From a bacterium (GTDB lineage: Bacteria > Vulcanimicrobiota > Vulcanimicrobiia > Vulcanimicrobiales > SCRA01), in assembly GCA_004298675.1 (NCBI GenBank), contig SCRI01000082.1:7146-71145 (forward strand): 64,000 bases of DNA, given 5' to 3'. The notes under the pieces are model-generated. The model was not told where the DNA came from. It saw only the letters and a program-made list of their open reading frames with translations, and searched no databases. Position numbers and translations under genes: made by a program. Positions 32,935 through 56,271 of this stretch are shown piece after piece. How positions within the stretch are numbered: position 1 is the stretch's first letter; each line of letters opens with the position of its first letter.

Positions 32935-34086
32935 ATGATGAATTCTGTTGGAGCATTAGCCGGAATTCGCGTACTCGATCTCACGCGCATTGCGAGCGGG
33001 CCTTACGCAACGCTGCTGCTCGCCGATCACGGCGCCGATGTCGTGAAAGTCGAGGAGCCATCCCGGGGGGACGACACGCGCGCCTTTCCCCCGTACATCG
33101 CAGGAGAATCGACGTACTACCTCAGCCTCAATCGCGGCAAGAAGTCGGTAGCACTTGACCTGAACTCCGCGCGCGGCCAAGCGCTACTCCGTTCCGCCGT
33201 CCCGGACTTCGACGTCCTGATCCACAACTATCGGCCGGCCTATGTGGAACGGGCGCGCCTGGGATACGAAGAGCTTGCGGCCATCAATCCCCGGCTCATC
33301 TACTGCACGATTACGGGTTTCGGAACCAGTGGCCCCAAGGCGGACAAACCCGCGTACGATCTGTTCGTGGCGGGGATTGCAGGCTTGATGAGTGTGACCG
33401 GGGAGCCGGACGGGCCGCCCCAGAGACCCGGGGTAAACCTCATCGACCATCTTGCCGGTGTCAACGCGGCCTTCGGCATCCTGCTCGCGCTAAAGGCCAG
33501 AGAGCGAACGGGACGCGGTCAACGCGTCGAGGTCTCGCTGCTCGACTCGCTCCTTTCCTGCTCCGGCTATCTCGTTGCGGCGGCGGCCGCGAACGGCAAG
33601 GCGCCGCGACCGACCAGTCACAACCAACACGCACAGATCGTGCCTTACGGGACGTTTCGCACGGCCGATGGCTACATCAACATCGGCGTGCTCAACGACA
33701 AAGTATGGCAACCTTTCTGCCACGCGCTGTCGCGCGACGATCTCTCCGCAGATCCGCGCTTTCAAACCAATGCCCTACGCGTCGAGCACAAGAGCGCGCT
33801 ACTCGATCTCATCCGCCCCGTACTCCTGACCCGAGCCTCGGGTGAATGGCTCGAGTCGTTCGAAGCGGTGGGCATTCCGTGTGGCCCGATCAACTCATTT
33901 GCCGAGGTCCTTACCGATCCTCAGGTCATTCACAATAGCTTGCTTGTCGAGATGCAGCACCCAGCATATGGCTCGGTCACGGTCGTCCGCTCGCCCGTGC
34001 TGTTGAGTGAGACGCCCGCAAGCGTCTCGCTGGCGCCTCCGATTCTAGGCGAGCACCCGATTAGCACGTTGAGGAGGCTGGCATGA
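32935..34086 (+). CDS. CaiB/BaiF-type (class III) CoA-transferase
   Basis: 383 residues. Family III marks: LAGIRVLDLTRIASGPYATLLLADHGADVVKVEEPSRGDDTR at the start, LNRGKKSVALDL, and KPAYDLFVAGIAGLMSVTG, whose Asp fits the catalytic aspartate; later TGRGQRVEVSLLDSLL. It moves CoA between organic acids. It is the first gene of the operon with the GWTDGLP protein, the UGSC selenoprotein and the TRAP receptor, and its stop overlaps the next ATG by 4 bp. A dicarboxylate imported by the TRAP system is a likely substrate, by inference. Confidence 0.9.
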   Translation: MMNSVGALAGIRVLDLTRIASGPYATLLLADHGADVVKVEEPSRGDDTRAFPPYIAGESTYYLSLNRGKKSVALDLNSARGQALLRSAVPDFDVLIHNYRPAYVERARLGYEELAAINPRLIYCTITGFGTSGPKADKPAYDLFVAGIAGLMSVTGEPDGPPQRPGVNLIDHLAGVNAAFGILLALKARERTGRGQRVEVSLLDSLLSCSGYLVAAAAANGKAPRPTSHNQHAQIVPYGTFRTADGYINIGVLNDKVWQPFCHALSRDDLSADPRFQTNALRVEHKSALLDLIRPVLLTRASGEWLESFEAVGIPCGPINSFAEVLTDPQVIHNSLLVEMQHPAYGSVTVVRSPVLLSETPASVSLAPPILGEHPISTLRRLA

Positions 34087-35138
34087 TTGGCTCTCAAACG
34101 TCGCGCGAAGCGATCGAGATGATTGAACTGATGTATCAAGCAGGCTGGACGGACGGTTTACCGGTCGTTCCGCCGCTACCGGAACTCGTCGATGCCTTCG
34201 TGAGGTACGTCGACCGTTCTCCGGACGACCTGGTTGGCTATATCCCGCCCCTCGGCGGCAAGGCAACCATGGCGAAGGTCGCCGCGAACGCGGTGATGGC
34301 GGGATGCCGGCCGGAATACATGCCCGTAATCCTGACCGCCATCGATGCCATGCTGGACGACAAATTCAACCTCGGCGGAATGCAGTGCTCGACGCATCTT
34401 TCAACTCCCCTCTTGATCATCAATGGCCCCATCCGAAAGGAACTCGACATCAATTGCGGGGCCAACGTGTTCGGGCAGGGCTGGCGCGCCAACGCCACGA
34501 TCGGGCGGGCCGTCAAGCTCGTCCTGGTGAACATCGGCGGTGCGATTCCGGGCGTCACGGATAAAGCCACGCTCGGCCACCCGGGGAAGTACACCTACTG
34601 CATCGGGGAGAACGAAGAGGAATCCCCGTGGGAGCCTCTGCACGTCGAGCGCGGATTCAGTCCGGCAGACAGCACGGTCACCGTCTACGGCAGCGAGGCA
34701 CCCCATAACATCAACAATCAGATGGTCGACAACCCGTTCGATCTGCTTACGACGATCGGCAGCATGATGTCCAATCTCGGATCGAATCACCCATATCTCA
34801 TGGGCGAGAGTTTCGTCGCGCTGTGTCCGGAGCACGCGAGTGTATGTGCCGCGAATCGTTTTCGGAAAGTCGACGTTCAGCAGTTCTTGTTTGACAACGC
34901 GCGCAACGAACATCGCCGCCTCAAGGCTGGTGGAATTTACGGCGCGGACACGGCGAAGTATAACACCTGGCCGCATTGGATCGACCGGCAGCGGGACGAT
35001 GTCATGGTCCCGGTCTGCCGGCGTGCCAGCGATATCTCGGTGATCGTAACCGGCGGGCCGGGGCGACACTCGGCCTACCTTCCGGGCTGGTCCTCTCGCT
35101 CGGCAACGCGAAAAATCGAACTAGCGAGGAGCAAGTAG
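34083..35138 (+). CDS. GWTDGLP-motif protein, UGSC partner (family 1 of 3)
   Basis: 351 residues; no function is known. The N-terminal motif GWTDGLPVVPP (residues 21-31) and the conserved VMAGCRPEYMP (Cys75) recur in the proteins at 53289 and in the C-terminal half of the one at 54529; all three also share GWRANATIGR/FQANTSIGR-like and NPWEPLHVE-type segments. The single conserved cysteine could be functional. It starts inside the CoA-transferase stop and ends 2 bp before the UGSC selenoprotein, so the two are almost certainly cotranslated. In the other locus the same domain is fused to a UGSC domain, which implies a direct partnership. Confidence 0.82.
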   Translation: MIGSQTSREAIEMIELMYQAGWTDGLPVVPPLPELVDAFVRYVDRSPDDLVGYIPPLGGKATMAKVAANAVMAGCRPEYMPVILTAIDAMLDDKFNLGGMQCSTHLSTPLLIINGPIRKELDINCGANVFGQGWRANATIGRAVKLVLVNIGGAIPGVTDKATLGHPGKYTYCIGENEEESPWEPLHVERGFSPADSTVTVYGSEAPHNINNQMVDNPFDLLTTIGSMMSNLGSNHPYLMGESFVALCPEHASVCAANRFRKVDVQQFLFDNARNEHRRLKAGGIYGADTAKYNTWPHWIDRQRDDVMVPVCRRASDISVIVTGGPGRHSAYLPGWSSRSATRKIELARSK

Positions 35139-35140
35139 AC

Positions 35141-36013
35141 GTGCAGACAGTAACTTCGACCAATGACGACCGCAAAGCCCTGGCCGCGAAGCGGCTGGCA
35201 GAGCTAGGCCTCGTTGATCCAGTGGACCATTCCTCAACGACTCTGGCTGCGGCTCAGCGCTTGGAGTCGCTCGCGGGTAAGCGCCCCGGACTGCTTGACA
35301 ATCGCAAGGGGAATGGTGACCGCCTACTCGAGCGCATCGGTCAGCTGCTTGTCGATCGGTATGGAACGCTGGAGCCGTACCGGACGACGAAGTTCATCTA
35401 TGCCCGCCGAGCCGACGAGAAGATCCTCGAGGATCTGGCGGCAAGGTGTGACTTCGTCGTCACCGCGGTCGGTGATTGAGGGTCTTGCGTGTCGTGCAGT
35501 GTGCACGACGGCATCGAGTTGGAGACGCGTGGAATTCCTTCCGTGGCGATTCATACGTCGGCCTTCCTCGGATCCGCACGCGCGCATGCGTCGGCGTTCG
35601 GGCGACCCGATTACGAACCGGTGATCATGCGGCATCCGATTGCGGGTCTGACCCCAGACGAGGTCATAGCGCGTGCGGACGAGATCATGCCGACAATCGT
35701 CGCGTACCTTCTCGGGCAGGAGATTGACGCTCCGTCTGCGCAGCCGGCAGCCATGAGCGATGCGGAGGCCGCGATAACGGCGGCACTCAGTGAGCTCCGC
35801 AGCGGCTTCAATGCCGACGGCGCCGACCTCGAGGTCGTCACGGCAGGCGCGAGTTCGGTAACCGTGCGTCTGATAGTGACGCCGGAGACCTGCCTCGACT
35901 GCATCGTTCCCAAAAGTGCCCTTCAGCACATCGTGGAGAGCGCGGTACGTAAGGCGCATCCAACGGTGCAGTCCGTCGAACTGATCGACCCACGTGAGGT
36001 GACCATTCAATAA
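35141..36013 (+). CDS. UGSC-family selenoprotein with NifU-like C-terminal tail
   Basis: 290 residues counting selenocysteine at codon 113 (TGA 35477-35479). The GTG at 35141 follows GAGGAG by 9 nt. Before the TGA: RPGLLDNRKGNGDRLLERIGQLLVDRYG and CDFVVTAVGD; directly after it: GSCVSCSVHDGIELETRGIPSV. The U-G-S-C motif and the continuity of homology on both sides match the UGSC (seleno)protein family. A perfect hairpin (35491-35509) follows the TGA. Residues about 205-290 resemble a NifU-type domain with a CLDC pair (251, 254). The C-terminal part could begin at GTG 35489 as a separate protein, but that would lose the motif. Reaction unknown; redox or C-S/C-N chemistry is plausible. Confidence 0.87.
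35491..35509 (+). promoter_or_regulatory. SECIS-like hairpin after the UGA of UGSC-1
   Basis: GTCGTGC (35491-35497) and GCACGAC (35503-35509) pair perfectly over 7 bp around the loop AGTGT. The stem begins 11 nt after the TGA, and G is the second loop base. Bacterial SECIS elements lie directly downstream of UGA with G near the loop start, where SelB binds. The distance and loop closely resemble the well-studied E. coli fdhF element. Confidence 0.85.
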
Positions 36014-36048
36014 TCGCAACGAGGGCTTCGGCTCCGGAGGAGTAGACC

Positions 36049-37113
36049 GTGACAGAAGAGACACCACATAGCAACCTTTCCATGGGGTTCGTCTCCCGGC
36101 GGAGACTGCTGCAATGGGCTGGGACCGGTGCGCTGAGCATGGCGCTGCCAAAAGGCGCTGCCGCGCAATCCAGCGGGGGAGCAATCGAGACGCTGACGAT
36201 CCGCGTGAGTCACGAAGCTCCGGTCAATTTCATCAACGATCTCACGCTGAAAAAGTGGGCCGACAAGATCAAGGAGAAGAGCGGCGGCAAGATCACGGTC
36301 CAAGTGTTCCCCGCCGGCCAACTCTTCAACGATTCGGATGGCATGCAGACGCTGGTCACGTCGCAAGGCGCTACGTTACAAATGGTATCGACTAGCGCAT
36401 TCTACGTCGAACCGTACTGTATAGCTGCCGGAGCGTTTGAGCTACCCTACGAGTTCGCATCTCAGAATCAGTTCCGCGGTGCCTTAGACACCGCACCAGG
36501 CAGGCTTATCTCAAAGAGCCTGTCAGAGAACGGTTTGATCGCCATTGGCGACGTCATTGACCTTGGGCCGCTCATCGTGGTCAGCGCGAAGCGGCCGCTG
36601 CGGACACTCGCCGACATGCACGGGCTCAAAGTACGAAATTTGTCGGGCCAGATCACGGCTGATGCTATCCACGCCTTGGGAGCGGGGCCGGTCGACATCT
36701 CGTTCCCACAGCTTCCCCTCGCCATGAGCCAAGGGACAGTTGACGCGGCCGTTGCCACCTATCTTGCGTGGAATGCCGTGCTATCGGACATCGCGATGTA
36801 CGGCGTCGACCCGCAAATGTGGAAGGTTGGATACCTACAGCTCGTCCAGCGAGACTGGTGGAATGCGCTCAACGCCCCTACCCGCAGCTTGATCTCGTCC
36901 ACATTGTCAGAAGAGATCAGAGGTTCGTGGGCGGTGCTCGACGCAATGCTCGCGAGGGCGAAACATGCGCTTGCTGGAAAGGGACGAGAGGCGCTGACCC
37001 TGTCCACCAACGACATCGGCGCTTGGAAGCACGCTACGGCGTCCGTCATCGAAAAATGGGAGCCGAAGATCGGCCGGGAGATTGTCCAGGGTTTTCGTAA
37101 CGGAAGAGCCTGA
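36049..37113 (+). CDS. dctP: TRAP transporter substrate-binding protein (DctP-like)
   Basis: 354 residues from a GTG with GGAGG 8 nt upstream. A twin-arginine-like leader (SRRRLLQWAGTGALSMALP) is followed by the DctP fold: TIRVSHEAPVNFINDLTLKKWADKIKEKSGGKITVQVFPAGQLFND and GLKVRNLSGQITADAIHALGAGPVDISFPQLPLAMSQGTVDA. It delivers a ligand to the DctQ/DctM permeases encoded on the opposite strand at 31015-32792. It is 35 bp downstream of the selenoprotein gene and 8 bp before the IclR gene, so the operon couples uptake to the UGSC system. Confidence 0.9.
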   Translation: MTEETPHSNLSMGFVSRRRLLQWAGTGALSMALPKGAAAQSSGGAIETLTIRVSHEAPVNFINDLTLKKWADKIKEKSGGKITVQVFPAGQLFNDSDGMQTLVTSQGATLQMVSTSAFYVEPYCIAAGAFELPYEFASQNQFRGALDTAPGRLISKSLSENGLIAIGDVIDLGPLIVVSAKRPLRTLADMHGLKVRNLSGQITADAIHALGAGPVDISFPQLPLAMSQGTVDAAVATYLAWNAVLSDIAMYGVDPQMWKVGYLQLVQRDWWNALNAPTRSLISSTLSEEIRGSWAVLDAMLARAKHALAGKGREALTLSTNDIGAWKHATASVIEKWEPKIGREIVQGFRNGRA

Positions 37114-40701: not shown

Positions 40702-41553
40702 ATGAAACGACTAGCGGGTTCGGAACAGCGGCAAGCCGCTCCACGCGAGAGGGACCTCCTTCTAACACCGGGCGACGACAGAGGCGCTCAGCACGCTCCC
40801 GCCGTGACCCGGGCCATCAAGATCTTGCGGCTCCTCGCGAAGAGTGACGCTCCGCTTGGCGGCAGCGCCATCGCCCGAACGCTGGACCTGGTCCCCAGTA
40901 CCTGCCTGCACATCCTGCGCGCCCTCGTCGACGAGGGGATCGTGGCGGTCAACCCGGAGACGAAGCGCTACACCCTCGACGCGGGAATCCTCACGCTCGC
41001 CGGCTCGTTGCTGCAGGAAGAGAGCTTTTATCGCGCGCTGCAACCAACGATCGACGGGATCGCCCACACGTTCGATATGACGACGATCGCGCTTCAGCCG
41101 CTCGCGCGCAAGCATTTGGTGGTGGTCGCGATCTCACGCACCGAGCGGGCGTTACGCCTACACGTCGACATTGGCAGCCGCTTCCCGCTGTTGATCAGCG
41201 CAAGCGGGCGCTGTGTCGCGGCGTTCGGTTCATATTCACCTGCGGAGCTCGAGCGCGCGTTCACCGCACTGCGCTGGGACGACGCGCCCTCTTTCAAAGT
41301 TTGGAAACGGCAAGTCGAAGAAACACGCCGTCAAGGGTACGGCGTCGACATCGGCAACTACATCAACGGAGTGACGATTGTCGCCGCTCCGGTACTCGAC
41401 CCCACGGGTCGCATCCCCCACATCCTGGTCGCGCTCGGCATCGGCGAGCAGATCGAACGAATCGGCATTTCGACGCTCGGCGAAGCGCTGCGCGAGGCAG
41501 CCACGGACATCTCGCAACACTTTAGTCCACGTCAGGAGGAGGAACGTTCATGA
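40702..41553 (+). CDS. IclR-family transcriptional regulator (Liv system 2)
   Basis: 283 residues. After a polar N-terminal tail the winged helix lies at residues about 32-95 (AVTRAIKILRLLAKSDAPLGGSAIARTLDLVPSTCLHILRALVDEGIVAV), then the IclR effector domain with AHTFDMTTIALQPLARKHLVVVAISRTERALRLHVDIGSRFPLLISASGRCVAAF and GVTIVAAPVLDPTGRI. It ends by overlapping the ATG of the binding-protein gene. It probably controls its own operon and the divergent ligase/dehydratase pair. Confidence 0.92.
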   Translation: MKRLAGSEQRQAAPRERDLLLTPGDDRGAQHAPAVTRAIKILRLLAKSDAPLGGSAIARTLDLVPSTCLHILRALVDEGIVAVNPETKRYTLDAGILTLAGSLLQEESFYRALQPTIDGIAHTFDMTTIALQPLARKHLVVVAISRTERALRLHVDIGSRFPLLISASGRCVAAFGSYSPAELERAFTALRWDDAPSFKVWKRQVEETRRQGYGVDIGNYINGVTIVAAPVLDPTGRIPHILVALGIGEQIERIGISTLGEALREAATDISQHFSPRQEEERS

Positions 41554-42719
41554 TATCTCGAACGGTCACGCGGCTCGCTGCCGTTGCACTCATCCTCGCC
41601 TTCGCAGTCATCGGTGCGGCACCGGTGACGGCGGCCGATCCCATCAAGATCGGCGCCTCGCTCTCGTTGACCGGCCGCTTCTCCGATTCAGCCAAATACG
41701 TTCAAGAAGGGTATCAACTCTGGCTGGATGAGGTGAACGCGCACGGCGGGATCAACGGCCGTCAGGTCCAACTGATCACCTACGATGACGAGAGCAATCC
41801 GGATACCGCCGCGGTGTTGACCGAGCGGCTCATCTCCCGTGACGGCGTCATCGCGATCCTCGGGCCCTACTCGAGCCCGATTACCGATGCCGCCGCAACC
41901 GTGGCGGAGCGCGCCGGCGTACCGATGCTAGGAACGATCGCTTCGGACAGCTCCATCTGGGAGCGCCGTAAGCTCCACTGGACCGTTCAAGCGTTTCCGT
42001 CGTCAACCTACGACCATGAAGGCTTTCTCAAGGTGATCGCGAGCAAGGGAAAAGCGATCAAACACCTCGCGATCGTCTACGAAGAGTCGCCGTTCTCGAT
42101 CGGTGCCAAGAATTGGGCCATGGAAGAAGCGAAAAAGATGGGGCTTGCGGCCGAAGCCGTCGGCTACGCGCCGGGATCCCAGGATTTTAGCTCGATCGTC
42201 GAGCGTCTCATCGCGTCCAAGGCCGATGCCGTCTCGATGGGTGGATACTACCAGCCCAGCATCGCGCTCACGCGCAAGATGATCGAGCGCGGCTACAATC
42301 CCGTCGCATATCACTTCATCCAAGCGGCAGACGGCGTGACGAAGACCGCGCTTGCTGACAACGCCAACGGTATCTTCGGACGCTCCGCGTGGGAATCAAC
42401 CTTCACCGACAGCGCGAGCAAAACGTTCACCGCCGCCTACAAGGCCAAGTTCAACCGGTTGCCGTCATACCACTCAGCCGCCGCCTACGCCGCGGGACAA
42501 GTCCTCGAAGCGGCGATCAAGGCCAAAGGGCCGGACAAGAACGGCATCCGGGACTTCATCACCACGACGACGATGCCGACCGTGCTCGGCACCTACAAGG
42601 TCAACAGCAAGCTGCAGCAGGAAGGCTATCGCTACACGCTCACGCAGTGGGTGAACGGAGAGTCCAAAGTCGTCCGCAACCCGGCTCAAGCCCTGTGGCC
42701 GAAGCCCGCCTGGAAGTAA
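41550..42719 (+). CDS. Liv-type ABC substrate-binding protein (system 2)
   Basis: 389 residues; signal peptide residues about 8-30 (AVALILAFAVIGAAPVTA). Fold marks: IKIGASLSLTGRFSDSAKYVQEGYQLWLDEVNAHGGINGRQVQLITYDDESNPDTAAVLTERLI and DFSSIVERLIASKADAVSMGGYY. It feeds LivHMGF genes directly downstream (4-bp spacing to livH). The neighbouring acyl-CoA pathway suggests an organic acid rather than an amino acid as ligand, by inference. Confidence 0.91.
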   Translation: MISRTVTRLAAVALILAFAVIGAAPVTAADPIKIGASLSLTGRFSDSAKYVQEGYQLWLDEVNAHGGINGRQVQLITYDDESNPDTAAVLTERLISRDGVIAILGPYSSPITDAAATVAERAGVPMLGTIASDSSIWERRKLHWTVQAFPSSTYDHEGFLKVIASKGKAIKHLAIVYEESPFSIGAKNWAMEEAKKMGLAAEAVGYAPGSQDFSSIVERLIASKADAVSMGGYYQPSIALTRKMIERGYNPVAYHFIQAADGVTKTALADNANGIFGRSAWESTFTDSASKTFTAAYKAKFNRLPSYHSAAAYAAGQVLEAAIKAKGPDKNGIRDFITTTTMPTVLGTYKVNSKLQQEGYRYTLTQWVNGESKVVRNPAQALWPKPAWK

Positions 42720-42723
42720 TCCG

Positions 42724-45959: not shown

Positions 45960-47129
45960 ATGGATTTTGAACTAAGTGAAGAGCAACAGGCGATCCGGGA
46001 CTCCGTCCTCAAGCTGTGCACGCGCTTCGATGACGCGTACTGGCTCGAAAAGGATCGCCACGGCGGCTTTCCGGTGGAGTTTCACGCCGCGATCGCGCAA
46101 GCGGGTTGGCTCGGCATCGCGATGCCCGAAGCGTACGGTGGCGCGGGGCTAGGGATCACGGAAGCCGCGATTCTGCTCGAAGCGGTTGCGGAGTCGGGCG
46201 CAGGGATGAGCGGCGCGTCGGCGATCCACATGAACATCTTCGGTCTGCAGCCGGTCGTCGTCTTTGGGACTGCCGAACAGAAGGCGCGCATGCTGCCGCC
46301 GCTCATCGCGGGAGCGGAGAAGGCGTGCTTTGCCGTTACCGAACCCAATATCGGGCTCAACACGACCGCACTCATGACGCGCGCCGAAAAGCATGGCGAT
46401 CGCTACGTCGTCAACGGCGAGAAGATCTGGATCTCGACGGCTCAAGTCGCGGACAAGATGCTGCTGCTCGCGCGCACGACGCCGCGTGCGGACGTCAAAC
46501 GTAAGACCGACGGGCTGACGCTCTTCTACACCAGCTTTCGTCGCGGCGAGGGCGTCGAAGTCCGGGAGATCGAAAAGCTCGGCCGCAAAGCGGTCGACTC
46601 GAACATGCTGTTCATCAACGGCCTGGAGATTCCCGAGGCCGACCGCATCGGCGCCGAGGGCGACGGCTTTAAATCGATCCTGCACGGCATGAATCCGGAG
46701 CGCATTCTCATTGCCGCCGAAGCAGTCGGCATCGGGCGTGCCGCTCTGCGCAAGGCAGCGGCCTACGCCAAAGAGCGGGTGGTCTTCGATCGGCCGATCG
46801 GGCAGAATCAAGGAATTGCCCATCCCCTTGCGCGCTGTTGGATGGACGTGGAGGCGGCCTACCTGATGGTGCTGCGCGCGGCGGACGCTTACGACCGCGG
46901 TAAGGAATGCGGAGTGGAAGCCAACAGCGCCAAGTACCTGGCGGCGGAAGCCGCGTTCCATGCGTGCGAGACCGCAGTCATGACGCTTGGCGGCATGGGC
47001 TATGCCAAGGAGTATCACGTGGAGCGCTATCTGCGCGAGTCGCTGATTCCCCGCATTGCGCCGATCAGCCCGCACATGATCATGAACTTCATCGCCGAGC
47101 GCGTGCTCGGCTTGCCGAAATCGTACTAG
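45960..47129 (+). CDS. Acyl-CoA dehydrogenase family protein
   Basis: 389 residues with MDFELSEEQQAIRDSVLKLC start, the FAD/substrate motif CFAVTEPNIGLNTTALMTRAEKHGDRYVVNGEKIWISTAQVADKMLL and the C-terminal LGGMGYAKEYHVERYLRESLIPRIAPIS. The last helix lacks the usual IYEGT segment around the catalytic glutamate and reads IAPISPHM, like CaiA-type members. In the operon with MaoC, CitE and CoA-transferases it may oxidise methylsuccinyl-CoA or a similar branched acyl-CoA, by inference. Directly follows livF (10 bp). Confidence 0.88.
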   Translation: MDFELSEEQQAIRDSVLKLCTRFDDAYWLEKDRHGGFPVEFHAAIAQAGWLGIAMPEAYGGAGLGITEAAILLEAVAESGAGMSGASAIHMNIFGLQPVVVFGTAEQKARMLPPLIAGAEKACFAVTEPNIGLNTTALMTRAEKHGDRYVVNGEKIWISTAQVADKMLLLARTTPRADVKRKTDGLTLFYTSFRRGEGVEVREIEKLGRKAVDSNMLFINGLEIPEADRIGAEGDGFKSILHGMNPERILIAAEAVGIGRAALRKAAAYAKERVVFDRPIGQNQGIAHPLARCWMDVEAAYLMVLRAADAYDRGKECGVEANSAKYLAAEAAFHACETAVMTLGGMGYAKEYHVERYLRESLIPRIAPISPHMIMNFIAERVLGLPKSY

Positions 47130-47150
47130 ACGGAGAGGAGCAGATCCGAC

Positions 47151-47609
47151 GTGGCAGGGCTATATTTCGAGGAGTTTGACGAAGGACAGGTGTTCGAGCA
47201 CGCGCCGACGCGCACGGTCACCGAGATGGACAACGTGCTGTTCAGCTCGCTGACCATGAATCCGCAGCCGTTGCACCTGGACGAGGAGTACGCCCGGACG
47301 ACGGAGTTCGGGCAGCGCCTGGTAAACAGCCTCTTTACCCTCGGACTCCTGGTCGGGATGACGGTGGGTGAGACGACGCTCGGAACGACGATCGCGAATC
47401 TGGGGATGAGCGAGATCGCCTTTCCGAAGCCGGTGTTCCACGGCGACACGCTGCACGCACGCACGACCGTTCGCTCAAAGCGCAGCAGCCGCTCGCGGCC
47501 CGATGCCGGAATCGTCGAATTCCAGCATCAGGCAATCAATCAGCGGGGCGAGATCGTTGCGACATGCGTGCGTGCGGCCTTCATGAAGAAGCGCACGGCG
47601 GCAGCATGA
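47151..47609 (+). CDS. MaoC-family dehydratase (mesaconyl-CoA hydratase-like)
   Basis: 152 residues from a GTG. Single hot-dog fold with [75 protein letters not shown]; the [11 protein letters not shown] segment and [14 protein letters not shown] resemble the mesaconyl-CoA/beta-methylmalyl-CoA dehydratase subgroup. It would hydrate mesaconyl-CoA to a malyl-type CoA ester for the CitE-like lyase that overlaps its 3-prime end (ATGA). Confidence 0.83.
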
Positions 47610-48460
47610 TGCGCTCGTATCTGTTCGTTCCGGCCGACAGCGAGCGTAAGCTCGCCAAAGGCAGCGAGAGCGGGGCCGACGCGCTGATCCTGGACCTCGA
47701 GGATTCGGTCGCCGAGGCGCGCCGTCCGATCGCGCGCGATTCCGCGCGAGCGTACATCGAAGCCGCCCGCGGCGGCCCACAACTCTACGTTCGCATCAAT
47801 GCTCTGGCCAGCGGGGCGGCGCTCGACGATCTCGCGGTTGTCATGCGTACCCGGCCGTACGGCATCATGCTGCCGAAGTGCATTCCCGCCGACGTCCGGA
47901 CGCTCTCTGCGTACCTGAGCGCGTTTGAAGCAGCCGGCGGGCACCCGGTTGGGGCGACGCGCATCGTGGCGATCGCGACGGAGACGCCCGCGTCCCTGTT
48001 CGCGCTGCAAGATTACCGCGGGGCGTCGTCACGTCTGGAGGCGTTGACCTGGGGTGCCGAAGATCTGGCGGCAGCGCTGGGTGCGGAGAATCGACTGGCC
48101 GACGGGACGTACGGCGATGTCTTCCGGCTCGCTCGTTCGCTGTGCGTGGTGGCCGCGGGGGCTGCGGAAGTCGCGGCGGTCGATACGGTATTCACCAACT
48201 TCAAAGACGAACGCGGGCTCGAGACCGAAAGCCGCGCCGCACGGCGCGCGGGGTTTGCGGGGAAGATGGCGATTCATCCGGCGCAGGTGCCGATCATCAA
48301 TGCGGCGTTCACCGCGACGCCGGAAGAGCTGCGTTGGGCCAAGGCGGTGATCGAGGCCTTCGAGCGTGCTCCGGACGCGGGCACCGTCGCGATCGATGGC
48401 AAAATGATCGATCGCCCCCATCTCACCCTGGCGCGGCGCTTGCTGGGGGCAGCACGATGA
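47606..48460 (+). CDS. HpcH/HpaI (CitE)-family CoA lyase
   Basis: 284 residues from the ATG overlapping the MaoC stop. [38 protein letters not shown] and [15 protein letters not shown], then [29 protein letters not shown] and [20 protein letters not shown] are marks of malyl-/citramalyl-CoA lyases; the LDLEDSV and IATETP acidic residues bind the metal. It would split beta-methylmalyl-CoA or citramalyl-CoA to glyoxylate/pyruvate and an acyl-CoA. A longer frame beginning at 47564 lies within maoC and was rejected. Confidence 0.87.
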
Positions 48461-49590
48461 GCGGCACGCAGAACGCCGGCGCATGGGAGCCGCTCGCCGG
48501 CATACGTATCCTCGACTTCTCCGTGCTCCTGCCCGGGCCGTTTGCCACGCTAGCCCTGGCCGATCTCGGCGCCGACGTCATCAAGGTCGAGGCCCCCGCG
48601 GGGGACGAGGGCCGGACGATTACCGGCTTGCACTTCGCCTCGGTCAACCGCAACAAGCGCAGCATCGCGCTCGACCTGAAAGATGCGGCCTCACGACCGG
48701 TCGTGGCCAGGCTCGCGGCTTGGGCCGACGTCGCCATCGAGACGTTCCGGCCGGGTGTTGCGCAGCGTCTGGGGATCGATGCCGGGATGCTGCGTTCGTA
48801 CAACGAGCGGCTGATCTACTGCTCGCTCTCGGGATACGGGCAAAACGGCCCGCAAGCGCAGACGCCCGGACACGATCTGAACTACCTCGCCGCGGCGGGA
48901 ACGCTCGCGCTCGCGAGCCATTGGGGCGACGAGCGTCCGCGCCGCGCCGGCGTTCCAGTGGCGGACCTAGCCGGCGGCACCTACGCGGCGATCGCGATCT
49001 TGAGCGCGCTGTACGAACGCGAGCGGACCGGACGCGGCAGGCAACTCGATCTGAGCCTATTCGAAGCGGCGCTCTCGTTCACCGCCACGCGGCGCGGACT
49101 CGGCCTCGACGCCCCGACGCGGCTGCACCTCTACCCGACCAACGACCTATTCGAAACGGCCGACGGCCGGTATATCGTGCTCGGGCTCGTCGAAGATCGT
49201 TTCTGGGCGAATTTCATGCGTGCGCTCGGCGACGAAGCGAGCGCGCTACGGGATGCACGCTTCGCGAGCGAAGCATTGCGGCGCGAGCACGGCGACGTGC
49301 TCGAGCCGATCCTGCGTGCGACGTTGCGCGCGCACGCGGCCGAGGAGTGGTTAGCGCGCTTCAGCCGGCACGACGTCCCGGCACAACTCGTGGTAACACC
49401 GCGCGAAGCGAGCCGAGGCCCGCAGATGCGCGCGCGCGAGCTGGTCGTGGAGCGCGATGGCGAGACGCACTTGCCATTTCCCGTCATCGCCGACGGTACG
49501 CACAGACCGGCCCTTCGCAGCACGGCGCCCAGCCTCAACCAGCATGCGGACGATATCTTGCGCGAGCTCGGCATGGAGGCACGCGCATGA
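48457..49590 (+). CDS. CaiB/BaiF-type CoA-transferase (first of a pair)
   Basis: 377 residues from the ATG overlapping the lyase stop. GIRILDFSVLLPGPFATLALADLGADVIKVEAPAGDEGR, VNRNKRSIALDLKD, GYGQNGPQAQTPGHDLNYLAAAGTLALAS, and GRGRQLDLSLFEAALSF are class III CoA-transferase motifs; the HDLNY aspartate fits the catalytic position. It is paired with the next gene, so the two may form a heteromeric enzyme or act on two acids, such as mesaconate and methylsuccinate. Confidence 0.9.
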   Translation: MSGTQNAGAWEPLAGIRILDFSVLLPGPFATLALADLGADVIKVEAPAGDEGRTITGLHFASVNRNKRSIALDLKDAASRPVVARLAAWADVAIETFRPGVAQRLGIDAGMLRSYNERLIYCSLSGYGQNGPQAQTPGHDLNYLAAAGTLALASHWGDERPRRAGVPVADLAGGTYAAIAILSALYERERTGRGRQLDLSLFEAALSFTATRRGLGLDAPTRLHLYPTNDLFETADGRYIVLGLVEDRFWANFMRALGDEASALRDARFASEALRREHGDVLEPILRATLRAHAAEEWLARFSRHDVPAQLVVTPREASRGPQMRARELVVERDGETHLPFPVIADGTHRPALRSTAPSLNQHADDILRELGMEARA

Positions 49591-50792
49591 GCGGGCCGCT
49601 GCAGGGAGTACGGGTCATCGACGTCACGATGAACGTCCTGGGACCGTTCGGCTCGCAAATCTTGGGTGACATGGGGGCCGATATTTGGAAGATCGAGCCG
49701 CCCGAAGGCGATACGCTGCGCGGCGTCGGGCCGGCCCGTCATCCCAAGATGGGGCCGTACTACCTCAATCTTAACCGGAACAAGCGCAGCATGGCGCTCG
49801 ATATGAAGCGGGCCGAAGCGCGGCCAATTTTGCGGCGCATGATCGAGCGTGCGGACGTGGTGTTTTACAGCTTGCGACCCAAGGCGATGGCGCGGCTCGG
49901 CCTCGGCTATGACGACGTGCGGGCCATCAATCCGCGCATCATCTACTGTGGCTCGTTCGGCTACGGACAAGACGGGCCGTACGCCGACAAGCCTGCGTAC
50001 GACGATCTGATGCAAGGCGCGATTGGCCTCGCGGTGCTGCAAGCGAAGCAGGGTGAGCCGCCGCGCTACGTGGTGTCCGCCATTGCCGACCGCATCGTTG
50101 GGATGGCGGCTGCCTCCGCGATCGGAATGGCGTTATATCACCGCGAGAAGACCGGCGAGGGACAAGCGATCGAAGTCCCGATGTTCGAGACGATGATCCA
50201 ATTCGTTATGGGGGACCATCTGTACGGGAAAACGTTCGAACCGCCCCTCGGCGACTTTGGCTACCCGCGCCTCTTGGACCCACATCGCCAGCCGTATCGC
50301 ACCAGCGACGGCTTCATCAGCGTGCTGGTGTACAACGACAAGCAGTGGGAGCGCTTCTTCGCGCTCGCACAGCGCGCGGATTTGGCCGGCGATCCGCGCT
50401 ATGCGTCGATGCAGCAGCGCACGCAGAACATCAGCGCACTTTATGCCGAACTGGACGCGATCTTTCCGCTGAAGACGACGGCGGAGTGGATGCGGCTGCT
50501 CGGCGAAGCCGACATTCCCGCGGCACCGCTGCATACGCCGCAGTCACTGCTCGAAGACGAGCACGTACGCGCGGTGAACTTTTTCCCGCTGATCGATCAT
50601 CCCTCGGAAGGGCGCCTGCGCGGCATGGGCGTGCCGTCGACCTGGAGCGCGTCGCAACCCGAGATCCAGCGTCACGCGCCGGTCCTGGGCGAGCACACCG
50701 TCGAATTGTTGCGCGAGCTCAAGTTCTCCGAGCCCGAGATTGCCGCCGTCCTCTCCAGTGGAGCGGCAATGCAGTATCACGCGCGTCCGTGA
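49587..50792 (+). CDS. CaiB/BaiF-type CoA-transferase (second of a pair)
   Basis: 401 residues from the ATG at 49587; an extended frame to 48483 runs inside the first transferase and was not used. Marks: LQGVRVIDVTMNVLGPFGSQILGDMGADIWKIEPPEGDTLRG, LNRNKRSMALDMK, GYGQDGPYADKPAYDDLMQGAIG and GEGQAIEVPMFETMIQFV. The KPAYDDL aspartate is the likely catalytic residue. It ends the operon that starts at the iclR gene; 28 bp later the convergent flavoprotein gene ends. Confidence 0.9.
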   Translation: MSGPLQGVRVIDVTMNVLGPFGSQILGDMGADIWKIEPPEGDTLRGVGPARHPKMGPYYLNLNRNKRSMALDMKRAEARPILRRMIERADVVFYSLRPKAMARLGLGYDDVRAINPRIIYCGSFGYGQDGPYADKPAYDDLMQGAIGLAVLQAKQGEPPRYVVSAIADRIVGMAAASAIGMALYHREKTGEGQAIEVPMFETMIQFVMGDHLYGKTFEPPLGDFGYPRLLDPHRQPYRTSDGFISVLVYNDKQWERFFALAQRADLAGDPRYASMQQRTQNISALYAELDAIFPLKTTAEWMRLLGEADIPAAPLHTPQSLLEDEHVRAVNFFPLIDHPSEGRLRGMGVPSTWSASQPEIQRHAPVLGEHTVELLRELKFSEPEIAAVLSSGAAMQYHARP

Positions 50793-50820: not shown

Positions 50821-51753
50821 TCAGAGTAACCCGCGCTTCTGCAAGTATTCGGTCGCAGCGGCAGCGGCTACGGCGCCTTCGCTCAGTGCATTGACGATCA
50901 AGCCGCGATAGCCGCGGCGCACGGCACCGGCCGCAAAAACGCCCGGCACGGAAGTCCGGCCGTCACTATCCGTCTCGACCAGCCCACGAGCATCACGCTG
51001 CACGTCCGGCGGGAGAAATTCGACGTTCGGATCTGCGCCGACGAACACGAATACGCCGCGCACCGGAAGCTCTTGCATGCTACCATCCGCTATGCTGCGC
51101 AGGACCACGCCCTCGACGCACTCCTTGCCGAGTACTTGTTCCACTACCGTCTCCCAGTGGAAAGCAATACGCTCGCATTCAGCGGCTGCCTGCAGGTATC
51201 GCCGACGCGCACGCAGCCGCGAGCCACGTACGATCACTGCTACGGAGCGGCAGATCTCTCCCAGATGCAGCGCCGCCTGAAGTGCGGCATCGCCACCGCC
51301 GACCACTGCAACGTCGGCGTCACGGAAGAGGCCACCATCACACCAGTCGCACTGCGAAACACCACGGCCGCTCAACTCGCCCTCGCCGGGAACGCCGAGG
51401 GCATGTAGACGCCCGCCCGATGCGATGATGACCGCGTGCGCACGGACCATCCGGTCTTGCGTCGTCACCTCGAACCGCGGTGCCGCAATCTGAACAGCCG
51501 TCACGCGTGACTCCACCAGCGTCCCGCCCAGCGTCGCAAATCGCTCCTTCAACGTCTCCGCGAGCACTGCGCCGGAGACGGAGGTCGGCGCCGGATAACT
51601 ACCGAGGACGCCTACGTTCGCGACCTGCCCGCCCGGCAGCGGGCTTGGCTCGATGCAGACGACAGAGGCACCGAGTTCGGCAGCCTCCGCCGCAGCCGCG
51701 AGTCCGCAAATGCCGCCACCGATAACGGCGACGTCGCATTCAAGTCCGAGCAT
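50821..51753 (-). CDS. Thioredoxin reductase-like FAD flavoprotein with CxxC
   Basis: 310 residues. FAD motif VAVIGGGICGLAAAAEAAELG at the N-terminus, NAD(P)H motif VAVVGGGDAALQAALHLG in the middle, and between them the redox pair C135-C138 in SQCDWCDGG at the place of the CATC motif of TrxB; the C-terminal VFVFVGADPNVEFL and GVFAAGAVRRG are also family marks. It is the last gene of the UGSC-2 operon, overlapping pxpA by 14 bp. It likely supplies electrons to a disulfide, or to the selenoprotein, by inference. Its partner thioredoxin is not in the window. Confidence 0.87.
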   Translation of the reverse strand: MLGLECDVAVIGGGICGLAAAAEAAELGASVVCIEPSPLPGGQVANVGVLGSYPAPTSVSGAVLAETLKERFATLGGTLVESRVTAVQIAAPRFEVTTQDRMVRAHAVIIASGGRLHALGVPGEGELSGRGVSQCDWCDGGLFRDADVAVVGGGDAALQAALHLGEICRSVAVIVRGSRLRARRRYLQAAAECERIAFHWETVVEQVLGKECVEGVVLRSIADGSMQELPVRGVFVFVGADPNVEFLPPDVQRDARGLVETDSDGRTSVPGVFAAGAVRRGYRGLIVNALSEGAVAAAAATEYLQKRGLL

Positions 51754-52522
51754 GGACTACCTCAGACATCGGAGCGATATGCACGCCGGCGCGCTCCAGC
51801 GCGCCACGTAGCTCGATCGCTACCTCGGCCGCACCCGGCGTATCCCCGTGCAGGCAGATGGTATGCATCGGAATCTCCAGCCACGCTCCGTCGATGGCGC
51901 GCACGCGCCCCTCCAGCACCATCGCCACCGCCCGCTTCACCACCCGTGCGTGATCGGTTATCACCGCACCCGGTTGACGCCGCGACACCAGCGAGCCGTC
52001 GCCATTGTATTCGCGGTCGGCGAAGACCTCGTAGGCCACGCGCATCCCCGCCGCCTCCGCAGCGCGCGCGAATTCCCCGCCGAAGCTGACGATCAATAGG
52101 TTGGGATCGAAGTCCTTGACTCCAGCTACGATGGCGTCGGCCAACGCACGATCCGTCAGCGAAATATTGTTGAGCTGCCCGTGCGGCTTGACGTGCTGCA
52201 GCGGGACGCCGAATCGCCGGCAGAAGCCGGCGAGCGCGCCGATTTGGTAAAGCACGTCGGTGCGCGCCTCGTCGGGCGTCACGTTGAGGTTACGGCGTCC
52301 AAAGCCCACCAGATCCGCGAAGCCCGGGTGTGCTCCGACGCCAACGCCGTGACTCTTTGCCATCATCACCGTATGCGCCATCACACGCGGGTCGCCACCG
52401 TGAAAGCCACATGCCACGTTGGCAGACGAGATCGACGCGAACATGCGCTCATCGTCGCCCATCTTCCAGGCTCCGTAACTCTCACCCATGTCGCAGTTTA
52501 GGTCGATTACCGTTTCGCTCAT
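51740..52522 (-). CDS. pxpA: 5-oxoprolinase subunit PxpA (LamB/YcsF family)
   Basis: 260 residues with the family motifs IDLNCDMGESYGAWKMGDDERMFASISSANVACGFHGGDP, GAHPGFADLVGFGRRNL, QHVKPHGQLNN, YEVFADREYNGDGSLVSRRQPGAVI and HTICLHGDTPGA. PxpABC hydrolyses 5-oxoproline to glutamate with ATP. The PxpC subunit gene is not present in this operon, so the pair may act with a distant PxpC or on another cyclic amide. Located between pxpB and the flavoprotein. Confidence 0.92.
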   Translation of the reverse strand: MSETVIDLNCDMGESYGAWKMGDDERMFASISSANVACGFHGGDPRVMAHTVMMAKSHGVGVGAHPGFADLVGFGRRNLNVTPDEARTDVLYQIGALAGFCRRFGVPLQHVKPHGQLNNISLTDRALADAIVAGVKDFDPNLLIVSFGGEFARAAEAAGMRVAYEVFADREYNGDGSLVSRRQPGAVITDHARVVKRAVAMVLEGRVRAIDGAWLEIPMHTICLHGDTPGAAEVAIELRGALERAGVHIAPMSEVVHART

Positions 52523-52531
52523 CGGCTCTCC

Positions 52532-53284
52532 TCACGCGAGCAGTGCGCTACCGGGCGGCTCGGGCGCAAGCATTTCTTCGCCGGTAGCGAACGCGGCCGC
52601 GAGATGCTCGTACTGCTCGCGGCCGATCGGATAGAAGCGGAGCACATCGCCCGGCGCCCAGAGCACCGGTGGAATACGTTCAAGATTAAACGGTACAACA
52701 GGCGTCCGTCCCAGGAGGTGAAAGCCGCCCGGACTCGCCGTTGGGTAGATCGTCACCTGATGCCCGCCGAGCGCCACGGACCTAGGCGGCACAGCAACGC
52801 GCGGCGAGCCACGCCTAGGCAGGCGCAACGCGTCAGGGAGCATGCCGCAAATCGGCTGGCCGGGCGCGAAACCCACGGTGAAGATGCGGAAGTCCACTGC
52901 GGCGTGGAGGGTAATGACTTCATCCACGGTCAGACCGGTACGCGCGGCAACCTCAGGCAAGTCTTCCCCCGCGTACCACACCGGGACGCGGAAACGCCGG
53001 CCGGCAATCGTCTCATCCCCGCCTTGCATGAGCGCACTCCGCAATGCGGCGAGCACGGCGTCGCGCGTTGTCGCAAGCGGATCGAACTCGATCAGGAGTG
53101 TATTATAGGAAGGAATCGTTCCCCAGACTCCGGGTAGCGCGCCGTCTGCTAGCAGCCGCTGTGCCATACGCGTCGCCAGCAGGACGCGCGCGTTCGCGGC
53201 AACATCCAGCACTTGGCCAAACTCGATCAGTACGGCGGCATCGCCGACGGGAAGCGTGTTCGACCACGGCAATGATCGCACCAT
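52532..53284 (-). CDS. pxpB: 5-oxoprolinase subunit PxpB (KipI family)
   Basis: 250 residues from the ATG at 53282-53284, 4 bp after the previous stop. KipI-like marks: DAAVLIEFGQ, IPSYNTLLIEFDP, VPVWYAGEDLPEVAARTGLTVDEVITLHAAVDFRIFTVGFAPGQPICG(M)LP and GGHQVTIYPTASPGGFHLLGRTP. The frame extends far upstream to 53569 but only because it overlaps the preceding gene. Works with PxpA and PxpC in other bacteria; no pxpC follows here. Confidence 0.9.
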   Translation of the reverse strand: MVRSLPWSNTLPVGDAAVLIEFGQVLDVAANARVLLATRMAQRLLADGALPGVWGTIPSYNTLLIEFDPLATTRDAVLAALRSALMQGGDETIAGRRFRVPVWYAGEDLPEVAARTGLTVDEVITLHAAVDFRIFTVGFAPGQPICGMLPDALRLPRRGSPRVAVPPRSVALGGHQVTIYPTASPGGFHLLGRTPVVPFNLERIPPVLWAPGDVLRFYPIGREQYEHLAAAFATGEEMLAPEPPGSALLA

Positions 53285-53288
53285 GGTC

Positions 53289-54521
53289 CTACGTGGCGAC
53301 GTCCTGCCGTAGGCGAGACCAATCCCGCGGCAAGGTAATCGGAACCACGATTCGACACGGCGGGAACCCCCACGTCGGAAAGTAGACGTGCTGCGGGATC
53401 GGTACGTCAGCGCCGGCAACGAAGACGACAATGTCCTCCGCGCACTCGACGATGGGGATGGGCGCATGAGCGGCCTCGGCCGCAACGACCCACGACGGCA
53501 GGCCGTATGTCGGAGCGATCTTTGCACGCACCCACAAACGCTTCCACTCTTGGATCGGCATGCGTGCACGTTCGAATAGGTAGCGCGATACGTCGCGCTT
53601 ACTCCACCCCTGTTCCGCTACTTGCCTAGCCGTCGCCGGGGCAACGAGCACCGTCACGTAGCCGCCGTGTAGGATGCTGAAGGCCGAAGCTGCCGATGCC
53701 ATGACGCTCGCCAGATCGTCGAGTCCGCCCGTGACATTGATGCTGCACTCCGCGCGCAGCAGCGTGACGGCGCTGCTCTCCGCTGGCAACCCGCTCTCGA
53801 CATGCAGCGGCTCCCAGGGATTGGCCCGCGTGCGTTCGGCCAGGCAGAGCGTATAGCGCGCTGGCTGGCCGGTGCCCGCCAACGAGGTGACGGCTGGGAA
53901 TCCGCCACCAACGTTGTTCATGATCAAACGCACGGCCCGGCCGATCGTTGCGTTGGCACGCCAGCCGGGACCGAGCGCGCCGGTCCCGGCATTGACGCCT
54001 AGTTCCTCGGTCAGCGGACCGCTGACGACCAGCAACGGCGTGACGCTCTCGTCGGTCGTTTGCACACCGCGGAGGTTGAAGCGTGGATCGAGCAGGCCAC
54101 GCACCGCCGCCAGCACGATCGGGAAGTAATCCGGCCGGCAGCCCGCCATGACGGCGTTGACCGCGAGCTTCTCCACGCTGGCTTCGCCGTGCATCGGCTC
54201 GAGTTCGCCGATGACGGTCGCCGCGGACTCTGGTGAGTAGCGCAGCGTGTCGCGCACACGGGCTACCGTCGGCGGCACGATCGGCAGGCCGTCGGTCCAG
54301 CCACGGCGATAAAAGCGCGCGTTGACTGCCGCATCGGCATCCTTGCCGCGCACGCCCTCCACGCGCTGCAGCACACGGCCACCGCCAGCTGCACGCCCTC
54401 CCACGGCGTCCGTCTCGCGCATATGTTCGCTCAGGGCGTCATCGACCCACCCGCCGCCACGCTGAGCTCCGATAGGGTTGTGGATCCACTGCGTGCCGCC
54501 GTTCTCGCGCGGATCGCTCAT
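53289..54521 (-). CDS. GWTDGLP-motif protein, UGSC partner (family 2 of 3)
   Basis: 410 residues; function unknown. After a variable N-terminal region (residues 1-70) comes RGWTDGLPIVPPT (residues about 73-85) and VMAGCRPDYFP with Cys128, then RANATIGRAVRLIMNNVGG, WEPLHVESGLPAESSAVTLL and a C-terminal GYVTVLVAPATA/HVYFPTWGFPPCRI. Homologous to the product at 34083 and to the C-terminal half of the neighbouring selenoprotein, from which it is 7 bp downstream. Two linked copies suggest subunits of one complex. Confidence 0.82.
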   Translation of the reverse strand: MSDPRENGGTQWIHNPIGAQRGGGWVDDALSEHMRETDAVGGRAAGGGRVLQRVEGVRGKDADAAVNARFYRRGWTDGLPIVPPTVARVRDTLRYSPESAATVIGELEPMHGEASVEKLAVNAVMAGCRPDYFPIVLAAVRGLLDPRFNLRGVQTTDESVTPLLVVSGPLTEELGVNAGTGALGPGWRANATIGRAVRLIMNNVGGGFPAVTSLAGTGQPARYTLCLAERTRANPWEPLHVESGLPAESSAVTLLRAECSINVTGGLDDLASVMASAASAFSILHGGYVTVLVAPATARQVAEQGWSKRDVSRYLFERARMPIQEWKRLWVRAKIAPTYGLPSWVVAAEAAHAPIPIVECAEDIVVFVAGADVPIPQHVYFPTWGFPPCRIVVPITLPRDWSRLRQDVAT

Positions 54522-54528
54522 CTACACG

Positions 54529-56271
54529 CTATGTCGCAAGCGAAGACCGCAGCTTAGCCGCCCAATCGGTTGGCAGAGCGATCGGCCGCATCGTCGGAAA
54601 TCCAAGCATGCCATTGTGCGCCAAGAACGTACAGTTTGTCCGCATCGGGTCACCGCACACGGCGATCACAAAATCCTCGGGGCGAACCACCAGCGGCACC
54701 AGCCGCTCGCGATCGCGAGAGGCACCGAAGATCTTGGGTGCCTTCTGCAGCATCGTCATGTCGTAAAGCGAACGCTTGCCGGGAACCAAGTTCGTCCAAT
54801 CCGAGATATAGCGCTCGAACTGCCGTGCCGGGATACGTGCGTGCTCGAATAGGTAGGCCTGTACGTCGGCCTTGGTAAAGCCCGAGCTCGCTATCGCCTT
54901 GGCGACGATGGGTGAGAGCACGAGCATGGGCTTGTAAGTACCGGTCGCCATGCCGACGGTGAACATCAGCTCCCAACCGGTGTACTTGACGACCGCATCG
55001 GCGAGATACGGCAAGCACTCCTCCGCCGAGGAACCGTAGACCGAAACGATGACGTGCGCGCCCGTGTAGCGCGCAATGCAGACGCCGCTCTCGTCCGCCG
55101 GCAGACCCATCTCGGAGCATATGCTTGGCCACCCGATCTCGGCCAACGCATCCTCGTTTTCCGCCATGACGACACGCCAGGTCCCGCCGAAGGTTGCCTT
55201 GTCGTTTTGGAACGGCAGAAATCCGGCGACGTTGCGCAGATAGAGGCGCCAGAAGCGGCCGATGCTGGTGTTGGCCTGGAAGCCGTCGCGCAGTGCTCCC
55301 TGCTCGTAATTGAAGCCAAGATCCTTGATGAGCGGGCCGTTGATAACGATCTGCGTCTCGGCGCCGGGCGTGTTGCCACTGTGCTCGACGCCGTAAGCCG
55401 GGTCGGCCATGGCCTCGACCAGCGCGACCAGGATCGGCATATACTCGGGGCGGCAGCCGGCCATGACGCCGTTCACCGCGATGTTCCAGATGGTGGCGGC
55501 ACGGTGATCGGGAGGGATCTCCGCCACGACCTCATCCGGGTCGCGGTCCACGAAGGCGAGGAAGGTGCCGATGCGCTCCCGCGTCGGCGGCACGATTGGC
55601 AGTCCGTCGGTCCAGAGGTTCTCGTAGAAGTAGCGGTGGACCTCATCGATGCTTCCCTCGAACACCACCTCATGCGGCGCCGGCTCGGTCTTCTGCAGAG
55701 CGCCGTCCGTCGTGGTGGTCAAGCAATCGATCAGCCGCGCGAGCGTCACGGCCGAAATGTTGCGATCCAGTTCCTCAACACTCTGGACGTCGGGATGCCC
55801 CGGAACCATCGCGACCCCAAGAGCAGGCATACCCAAGCCCGACGACGTGGCCTCCGCCTGTCCGAGGAAGCCCTCGCAGACCAGCGTTGCCGTAGGAAAT
55901 CCGGCTCTCTCGACCGCGGCGCTCACCCGCAGCACGGCGGGTGTGCAGCTCCCTCAACAGCCTATGCCGGAGACCACTGCATCGACGCCGAGTGCGCGCA
56001 GCTTGTCCGGCAAACCGCCAACCACTTCGTGCTCGTTCTCGCCGTGCGTGGAGCCAAACGTCTCGTGGCCTATGAAACGTATGTCGGGAAATCGGCGTTG
56101 CAGCTCGCGCTCGAGCATGGGGAAGATCTCGTCGCCGCGGAACAGATAGTCCCAGACGAAGGCGACGGTCTTTCCGGCAAGTGAATCAAGCCGCGGGGCC
56201 AGGGGGTGCGACTGCAACGCCCGCTCTCCACGCGGCCAGAAGACGGCATAGGTACCGCCGTGCTCTTCCAT
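54529..56271 (-). CDS. UGSC selenoprotein fused to a GWTDGLP domain
   Basis: 580 residues counting selenocysteine at codon 106 (TGA 55956-55954). The ATG at 56271 follows GGAG by about 6 nt. The N-terminal UGSC domain has LAGKTVAFVWDYLFRGDEIFPMLERELQRRF and VDAVVSGIGC before the TGA, then GSCTPAVLRVSAAVERAGFPTATLV after it; the C-terminal domain (residues about 215-580) carries LWTDGLPIVPPT (about 219-230) and VMAGCRPEYMP (Cys273). The frame is open from 54529 to 56271 apart from this TGA. A hairpin (55924-55943) follows the TGA. If the TGA were a stop, two unrelated-looking halves of a known fold arrangement would result; the hairpin and a second UGSC gene in the window argue for selenocysteine. 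Confidence 0.86.
55924..55943 (-). promoter_or_regulatory. SECIS-like hairpin after the UGA of UGSC-2
   Basis: On the minus strand CACCCGC (55943-55937) and GCGGGTG (55930-55924) pair perfectly over 7 bp around the loop CGTGCT. The stem begins 10 nt after the TGA, and G is the second loop base. This is the same geometry as the hairpin in the other selenoprotein gene although the sequences differ. Confidence 0.83.

Follow-up and report, generated by a model that had tools for sequence, protein, structure and literature searches.

A repeated two-part selenocysteine system, UGSC-GW, as a candidate reductase for imported organic acids in a member of the Vulcanimicrobiales

The DNA analyzed here, referred to as the window, is a stretch of 64,000 nucleotides from contig SCRI01000082.1 of a bacterium of the Vulcanimicrobiales (lineage SCRA01, assembly GCA_004298675.1). 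It contains two loci in which a domain of the UGSC selenoprotein family (PF24696, NF041046) is encoded next to, or fused with, a second domain, which we call GW. The survey that listed UGSC as a selenoprotein family in 2008 assigned it no function and guessed a thioredoxin (Trx)-like protein (Zhang and Gladyshev, PMC2398784). Comparison across genomes supports the view that UGSC and GW are two halves of one selenocysteine (Sec)-dependent enzyme. The UGSC half shows remote kinship with the Sec domain found in glycine and proline reductases.

Two UGSC-GW loci in the window

Locus 1 (31015-37113) starts with two transporter genes on the minus strand, followed on the plus strand by a coenzyme A (CoA)-transferase, a GW protein, a UGSC protein that ends in a NifU-like domain, and a solute-binding protein. 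Its features are as follows.

31015..32289, minus strand: large permease DctM of a tripartite ATP-independent periplasmic (TRAP) transporter (PF06808, 334 bits)
32286..32792, minus strand: TRAP small permease DctQ (PF04290, 90 bits)
32935..34086, plus strand: CaiB/BaiF family III CoA-transferase (PF02515, 427 bits); its stop codon overlaps the ATG of the GW gene
34083..35138, plus strand: GW domain protein P0003; Cys75 codon at 34305-34307; AlphaFold model with predicted local distance difference test (pLDDT) 92.6 and predicted template modelling score (pTM) 0.92
35141..36013, plus strand: UGSC selenoprotein P0002 with a C-terminal NifU-like domain (PF24696, 172.4 bits; NF041046, 143.4 bits)
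35477..35479, plus strand: in-frame UGA of P0002, predicted Sec, in GDUGSC; conserved family-wide
35491..35509, plus strand: hairpin GUCGUGC-AGUGU-GCACGAC, 3' of the P0002 UGA, resembling a Sec insertion sequence (SECIS); based on family-wide codon-shuffle and covariation tests
36049..37113, plus strand: TRAP solute-binding protein DctP (PF03480, 139 bits)

Locus 2 (50821-56271) lies on the minus strand and encodes, in this order, a UGSC-GW fusion, a second GW protein, homologues of PxpB and PxpA, and a flavoprotein similar to thioredoxin reductase (TrxR).

50821..51753, minus strand: TrxR-like flavoprotein with the active-site motif CDWC (TIGR01292, 246 bits, under the equivalog cut-off of 343)
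51740..52522, minus strand: PxpA-like protein (LamB/YcsF; PF03746, 324 bits; NF003814 above its cut-off)
52532..53284, minus strand: PxpB-like subunit (PF02682, 186.7 bits); start approximate, as the mechanical open reading frame (ORF) extends further upstream
53289..54521, minus strand: stand-alone GW protein P0004 with the conserved Cys128
54529..56271, minus strand: UGSC-GW fusion selenoprotein P0001; codon of the GW cysteine, Cys273, at 55453-55455; AlphaFold model with pLDDT 90.6 and pTM 0.91
55954..55956, minus strand: in-frame UGA of P0001, predicted Sec, in GCUGSC (from the sequence)
55924..55943, minus strand: SECIS-like hairpin CACCCGC-CGUGCU-GCGGGUG, 3' of the P0001 UGA (from the fold of the window sequence)

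Both UGSC domains are members of the family by Pfam (PF24696, cut-off 25 bits), P0001 with 94.7 bits. By NCBIfam (NF041046, cut-off 125), P0002 is also a member, and P0001 falls short with 46.3 bits. The U/C-G-S-C motif is present in both. An earlier note on this DNA had reported three GW and two UGSC domains, and all of them were found at the positions it gave. It had also described a GWTDGLP string common to the GW copies. Two of the three carry it letter for letter, and the fusion has LWTDGLP. The cysteine of the (V)MAGCRP motif occurs in all three (P0003 Cys75, P0004 Cys128, and P0001 Cys273), and the contexts of the two loci, CaiB and TRAP DctP/Q/M in one, PxpA, PxpB, and the TrxR-like flavoprotein in the other, are as that note described them.

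The NifU-like domain of P0002 scores 24.6 bits, slightly under the Pfam cut-off of 27. Such C-terminal fusions with a CxxC motif (TCLDC, ACSDC) occur in very different bacteria, in the window at 35774-35980 and in Arthrobacter (locus L119, 7000-7815).

UGSC and GW as a two-part unit

The source genome has four UGSC genes and six GW domains, every one of the latter beside UGSC. Apart from the two loci in the window, the genes are found on contig C82 (UGSC, GW, GW) and on contig C11. In public genomes, we collected 80 GW loci as the best matches to a GW alignment query; they are not a random sample and come from Chloroflexi, Rokubacteria, Proteobacteria, Acidobacteria, Mycobacterium, haloarchaea, and others. 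A UGSC gene is adjacent in 71 of them (63 with TGA and eight with Cys). Two of the remaining nine lie at a contig edge, five represent a single Poribacteria type, and the last two are isolated cases. In the Poribacteria type (L070, 10004-15066; related loci L043, L060, L083, and L090), the GW gene of L070 is followed by genes for CBS-domain proteins and subunits of a 2-oxoacid:ferredoxin oxidoreductase.

Independently of this sample, UGSC was found in nine of 41 related genomes and GW in the identical nine, where each of the 22 GW genes has a UGSC gene no more than about 2 kb away. GW proteins occurring mostly without UGSC neighbors had been named in the earlier note as the observation that would speak against it, and the opposite was found in both samples. 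The two genes of adjacent pairs (89 pairs) are separated by a median of 92 nt. In a mirror-tree comparison, their distance matrices correlate with r = 0.825, versus a maximum of 0.124 in 1,000 permutations. When partners were swapped between paralogous systems of one locus (14 rows from six loci), r dropped from 0.80 to -0.23. The within-locus swap removes species history, and therefore UGSC and GW diverge as a unit. The prediction that they are two halves of one enzyme is thus supported by linkage, co-divergence, and fusion, and the two-part unit as such is well supported. The modular, selenium-dependent two-part system proposed from the window, repeated with differing transporters and catabolic genes, is supported as well.

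Selenocysteine

Each of the four UGSC genes of the source genome has a single TGA; in the two window genes, it is at the U of UGSC and is the one interruption of the frame. On contig C71, the same genome carries a tRNA-Sec gene (71.7 bits versus a cut-off of 47; anticodon tca by ARAGORN) and, about 10 kb away, selB. The window hairpins, taken individually, have SECIS z-scores of -1.2 and -0.2, which are not significant though the hairpins are present, and therefore the hairpin was tested family-wide. The 43 nt 3' of the UGA in 82 Sec genes have a mean folding energy of -17.8 kcal/mol, versus -13.3 (sd 0.35) when the codons are shuffled synonymously. A GU in the apical loop at the right distance is seen in 98% of these genes versus 54% of the shuffles. 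The stem covaries: among 79 distinct Sec sequences, one pair is G-C in 49 and C-G in 27. The complete hairpin is formed in 77% of the Sec genes and in none of the eight Cys genes. An Rfam scan of the window gave no RNA match. The predicted decoding of the UGSC TGA as Sec, and with it a dependence on selenium, is well supported by these data.

A UGSC-GW pair is also carried by the Paracoccus ferrooxidans plasmid pFER4 (L205, 5387-12134), with selB about 3 kb downstream; locus L118 is of the same type.

Kinship of UGSC with the Sec domain of GrdB and PrdB

UGSC was compared with GrdB, represented by 39 PF07355 sequences gathered from genomes, by profile-profile alignment (hhalign). The C-terminal domain of GrdB was matched with a probability of 95.7% (E 8.4e-9), with Sec on Sec and the cysteines of UxxC aligned; a larger UGSC alignment raised the probability to 96.4%. 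Masking the four motif columns of the two profiles still left 90.4%, compared with 0.6% for reversed profiles and at most 3.3% in 50 column shuffles. Some of the collected GrdB members have UGTC at the Sec site. In UGSC, the last position of UxxC is Cys in 87 of 90 sequences and Ser in three. Remote homology between UGSC and the Sec domain of the glycine and proline reductases is thus well supported by the profile evidence. This kinship is new here, as opposed to the family itself, known since 2008.

In the AlphaFold model of the fusion P0001, built with 68 sequences, the UGSC part resembles Rossmann-like alpha/beta folds (Z 9-10.7), with no specific relative and no thioredoxin fold among the matches listed. 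A sequence search of UGSC against the PDB gave noise only. The pTM of the fusion model suggests that the two domains are held in a fixed arrangement.

Two known systems are natural points of comparison. Protein B of glycine, betaine, and sarcosine reductase (GrdB/GrdE, PF07355/PF09338) has a homologous Sec domain, but its partner is a pyruvoyl protein; profile comparison shows no relation between GW and GrdE/PrdA, and PF09338 was not found in the source genome. Unlike the GrdB system, UGSC-GW also occurs, in a Cys version, in haloarchaea and mycobacteria. D-proline reductase (PrdA/PrdB) has the same two-part layout, a small Sec protein with UxxC beside a larger partner, but the partner of UGSC is GW rather than PrdA, and the donor genes nearby encode TrxR and Trx.

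Separately from UGSC, the source genome encodes a PrdB-like selenoprotein (LLTGGUPLCHRT, in-frame TGA) on contig C18 (47358-47750; L123, 1174-1893, minus strand). Related genomes also have a PrdB-like selenoprotein.

The GW domain

GW has no match in Pfam or NCBIfam, nothing convincing in Pfam up to E 10, and no sequence match in the PDB. A Foldseek search of the PDB with the P0003 model gave nothing under E 0.001, which by itself does not prove a new fold. Structural matches have Z of at most 6.7 over fewer than 100 residues and about 5 over longer stretches. Seven residues are invariant in 113 GW sequences (Asp24, Gly25, Gly115, Asn137, Gly141, Arg142, and Glu176); position 75 has Cys in 111 of them and Ala in the other two.

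Two candidate relatives of GW were rejected: GrdE/PrdA (0.1% probability versus PF09338 members by profile) and class I fumarase (Z 4.9-5.6 over about 185 residues; profile 0.2%, no better than shuffles).

Some UGSC proteins are fused to a domain called Unknown_1 in the 2008 survey (PMC2398784), possibly but not necessarily identical with GW. In the passages found, reviews up to 2026 add no function for UGSC. The papers searched describe neither a partner of UGSC nor its genome-wide linkage, its kinship with GrdB/PrdB, or a link to thioredoxin. A literature search, with subscription journals and preprints outside its scope, found no description of UGSC-GW chemistry; the suggestion in the earlier note that the chemistry is undescribed holds within these limits.

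Gene neighborhood

TrxR-like genes encoding a CxxC motif lie next to the pair, or to the operon that contains it, in the window, at loci L079, L086, and L101, and in Roseovarius, Haloterrigena, and Arthrobacter. The TrxR of L079 is 49% identical to the window flavoprotein, the CxxC of which aligns with the TrxR-like proteins beside other pairs. The gene order in Arthrobacter is trxB-trxA-GW-UGSC, and on two Variovorax plasmids a TrxR gene lies one to two genes from the pair. A parallel is provided by glycine reductase, which uses TrxR and Trx as its electron source; glycine reduction runs by the NADPH-TrxR-Trx route too (PMC3091704).

Among 133 co-directional neighbors, TctC proteins are the commonest (16); CoA-transferases, enoyl-CoA hydratases, and others number at most four each. 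In 18 of the 80 GW loci, a CaiB homologue is encoded nearby. The plasmid loci repeatedly include TRAP or TAXI receptors, CoA-transferases, and CitE-type lyases, and the C82 and C11 loci of the source genome adjoin ATP-binding cassette (ABC) transporters of the branched-chain-amino-acid type, as judged from ORF translations. These transporters and CoA enzymes point to small carboxylic acids, taken up by the cell and degraded by way of CoA, as the probable class of substrate.

PxpA and PxpB at locus 2 are homologues of components of 5-oxoprolinase PxpABC. The set is incomplete there, PxpC (PF02626) being found only on contigs C59 and C78. No homologue of PxpA or PxpB occurs in the 80 GW loci, and this non-recurrence rules out PxpAB as a core component.

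Between the two loci, the window (41550-50792) encodes a branched-chain-type ABC transporter, an acyl-CoA dehydrogenase, a MaoC-like protein, a CitE-type lyase, and two CaiB CoA-transferases, and looks like a dicarboxylate degradation cluster. DUF6282, three of the 133 neighbors in the tally, recurs near the pair in haloarchaea (L115, 1859-2755; L120, 7003-7836; L203, 1754-2650; L207, 6999-7850). UGSC-GW fusions with MGTS in place of the UGSC motif lie beside aconitase X and DUF126 in Sporomusa (L110, 9317-11041) and Vibrio europaeus (L113, 6224-7909).

Proposed function and alternatives

We propose UGSC-GW as a candidate two-part, Sec-dependent reductase for imported organic acids, fed by thioredoxin, and give this function an even chance. 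An organic acid would enter through a transporter of the TRAP, the TctC, or the branched-chain-amino-acid ABC type and be bound at the UGSC/GW interface, where Asp24, Asn137, Arg142, and Glu176 of GW may position or activate it. The selenolate of UGSC would attack a carbon and displace a substituent, as in glycine and proline reductase. The cysteine of UxxC, three residues along, would then resolve the intermediate. The reduced acid would be set free, and a selenenylsulfide would remain, to be re-reduced by NADPH, TrxR, and Trx. The product would probably be handed to CoA-transferases and beta-oxidation-like enzymes, and paralogous copies with different transporters would act on different substrates. 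With GW standing where those reductases have a pyruvoyl subunit (GrdE/PrdA), activation by a carbonyl group is improbable. The case for reductive cleavage and for this role of GW is about evenly balanced. More tentatively, and somewhat short of an even chance, UGSC-GW may constitute a third, pyruvoyl-independent branch of Sec-dependent reductive-cleavage enzymes next to glycine and proline reductase, with a new partner domain, paralogues for different imported acids, and a range that takes in haloarchaea and mycobacteria along with diverse bacteria.

Several observations weigh against such a reductase. Plain hmmscan of P0001, P0002, P0011, and P0012 gives no PF07355 match, and the negligible profile score of GW against GrdE/PrdA means that the reductase analogy covers one half of the system. 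TrxR genes lie beside a minority of pairs, with four homologues in the 80 loci (1.29 Mb), three of them directly adjoining the pair. Seven GW loci, the five from Poribacteria among them, have contig room yet no UGSC. Finally, the Sporomusa/Vibrio clade is devoid of both redox-motif residues, and its pair is still beside aconitase X. Since this clade lost the redox motif yet kept the pair, redox chemistry is not needed for the fold to be of use.

In one alternative, catalysis without redox chemistry (by a hydratase, lyase, isomerase, or hydrolase) would fall to GW, and UGSC would bind the substrate or regulate the enzyme, with Sec as a redox switch or protector. In its favor, GW is intact where UGSC has MGTS, it occurs alone in Poribacteria, and its topology is weakly similar, at Z about 5, to that of class I fumarase and of cyclic-amide hydrolases. 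However, Sec or Cys is retained in the other UGSC proteins examined, haloarchaea included, the hairpin is under selection, the fold likeness is under the level of evidence, and the fumarase profile gives 0.2%; we consider this explanation unlikely. Somewhat less probable still is a general thiol/selenol oxidoreductase of the peroxidase or repair type, thioredoxin-like, with GW as its partner and the transporters and CoA enzymes incidental. The UxxC motif, the TrxR/Trx neighbors, and the fold and redox role guessed in 2008 (PMC2398784) would agree with it. Against this, the modeled UGSC matches Rossmann-like folds among the matches listed, its relatives are GrdB and PrdB, and GW, in which Asp, Asn, Arg, and Glu are invariant, has the look of an enzyme. 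Catabolism specific to particular substrates is also the better fit where one genome holds several paralogues, each among other genes for uptake and breakdown.

Another possible arrangement, put forward in the earlier note, is a catalytic selenenylsulfide between Sec and the GW cysteine of VMAGCRP. The near-invariance of this cysteine and the confident domain arrangement in the fused model would be in line with such a couple. However, natural pairs keep either residue without the other. In locus L109, a Sec UGSC is paired with a GW that has VMAGA, with Ala at the Cys position; in Neorhizobium, a CxxC UGSC is paired with VMAGA; and the Sporomusa and Vibrio fusions with MGTS keep AGC in GW. Therefore, neither Sec nor the GW cysteine requires the other. 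As a necessary couple the two residues are not supported, an essential contact between them seems unlikely, and we regard this version of the catalysis as highly improbable. UGSC has a near-invariant resolving cysteine of its own, and by analogy with the dithiol-exchange model of GrdB/PrdB (PMC3091704), the cysteine of UxxC is the likelier resolving residue.

Since 2008, UGSC has been listed among the most abundant selenoprotein families of aquatic samples, with no function assigned. A near-constant partner, the superfamily of glycine and proline reductase, and a link to thioredoxin turn this orphan into a testable enzyme, and GW gains its first functional hypothesis. These ties also suggest that bacteria and archaea other than anaerobes fermenting amino acids may widely use selenium for the reductive cleavage of small organic acids.

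Annotation gains too, as at least one Sec gene is broken at its UGA in the public record: the UGSC gene of pFER4 is recorded as two hypothetical proteins. In Neorhizobium galegae VafX2 (L201, 5908-7576), the UGSC-GW fusion is in two reading frames, and in other strains it is in one piece by tblastn.

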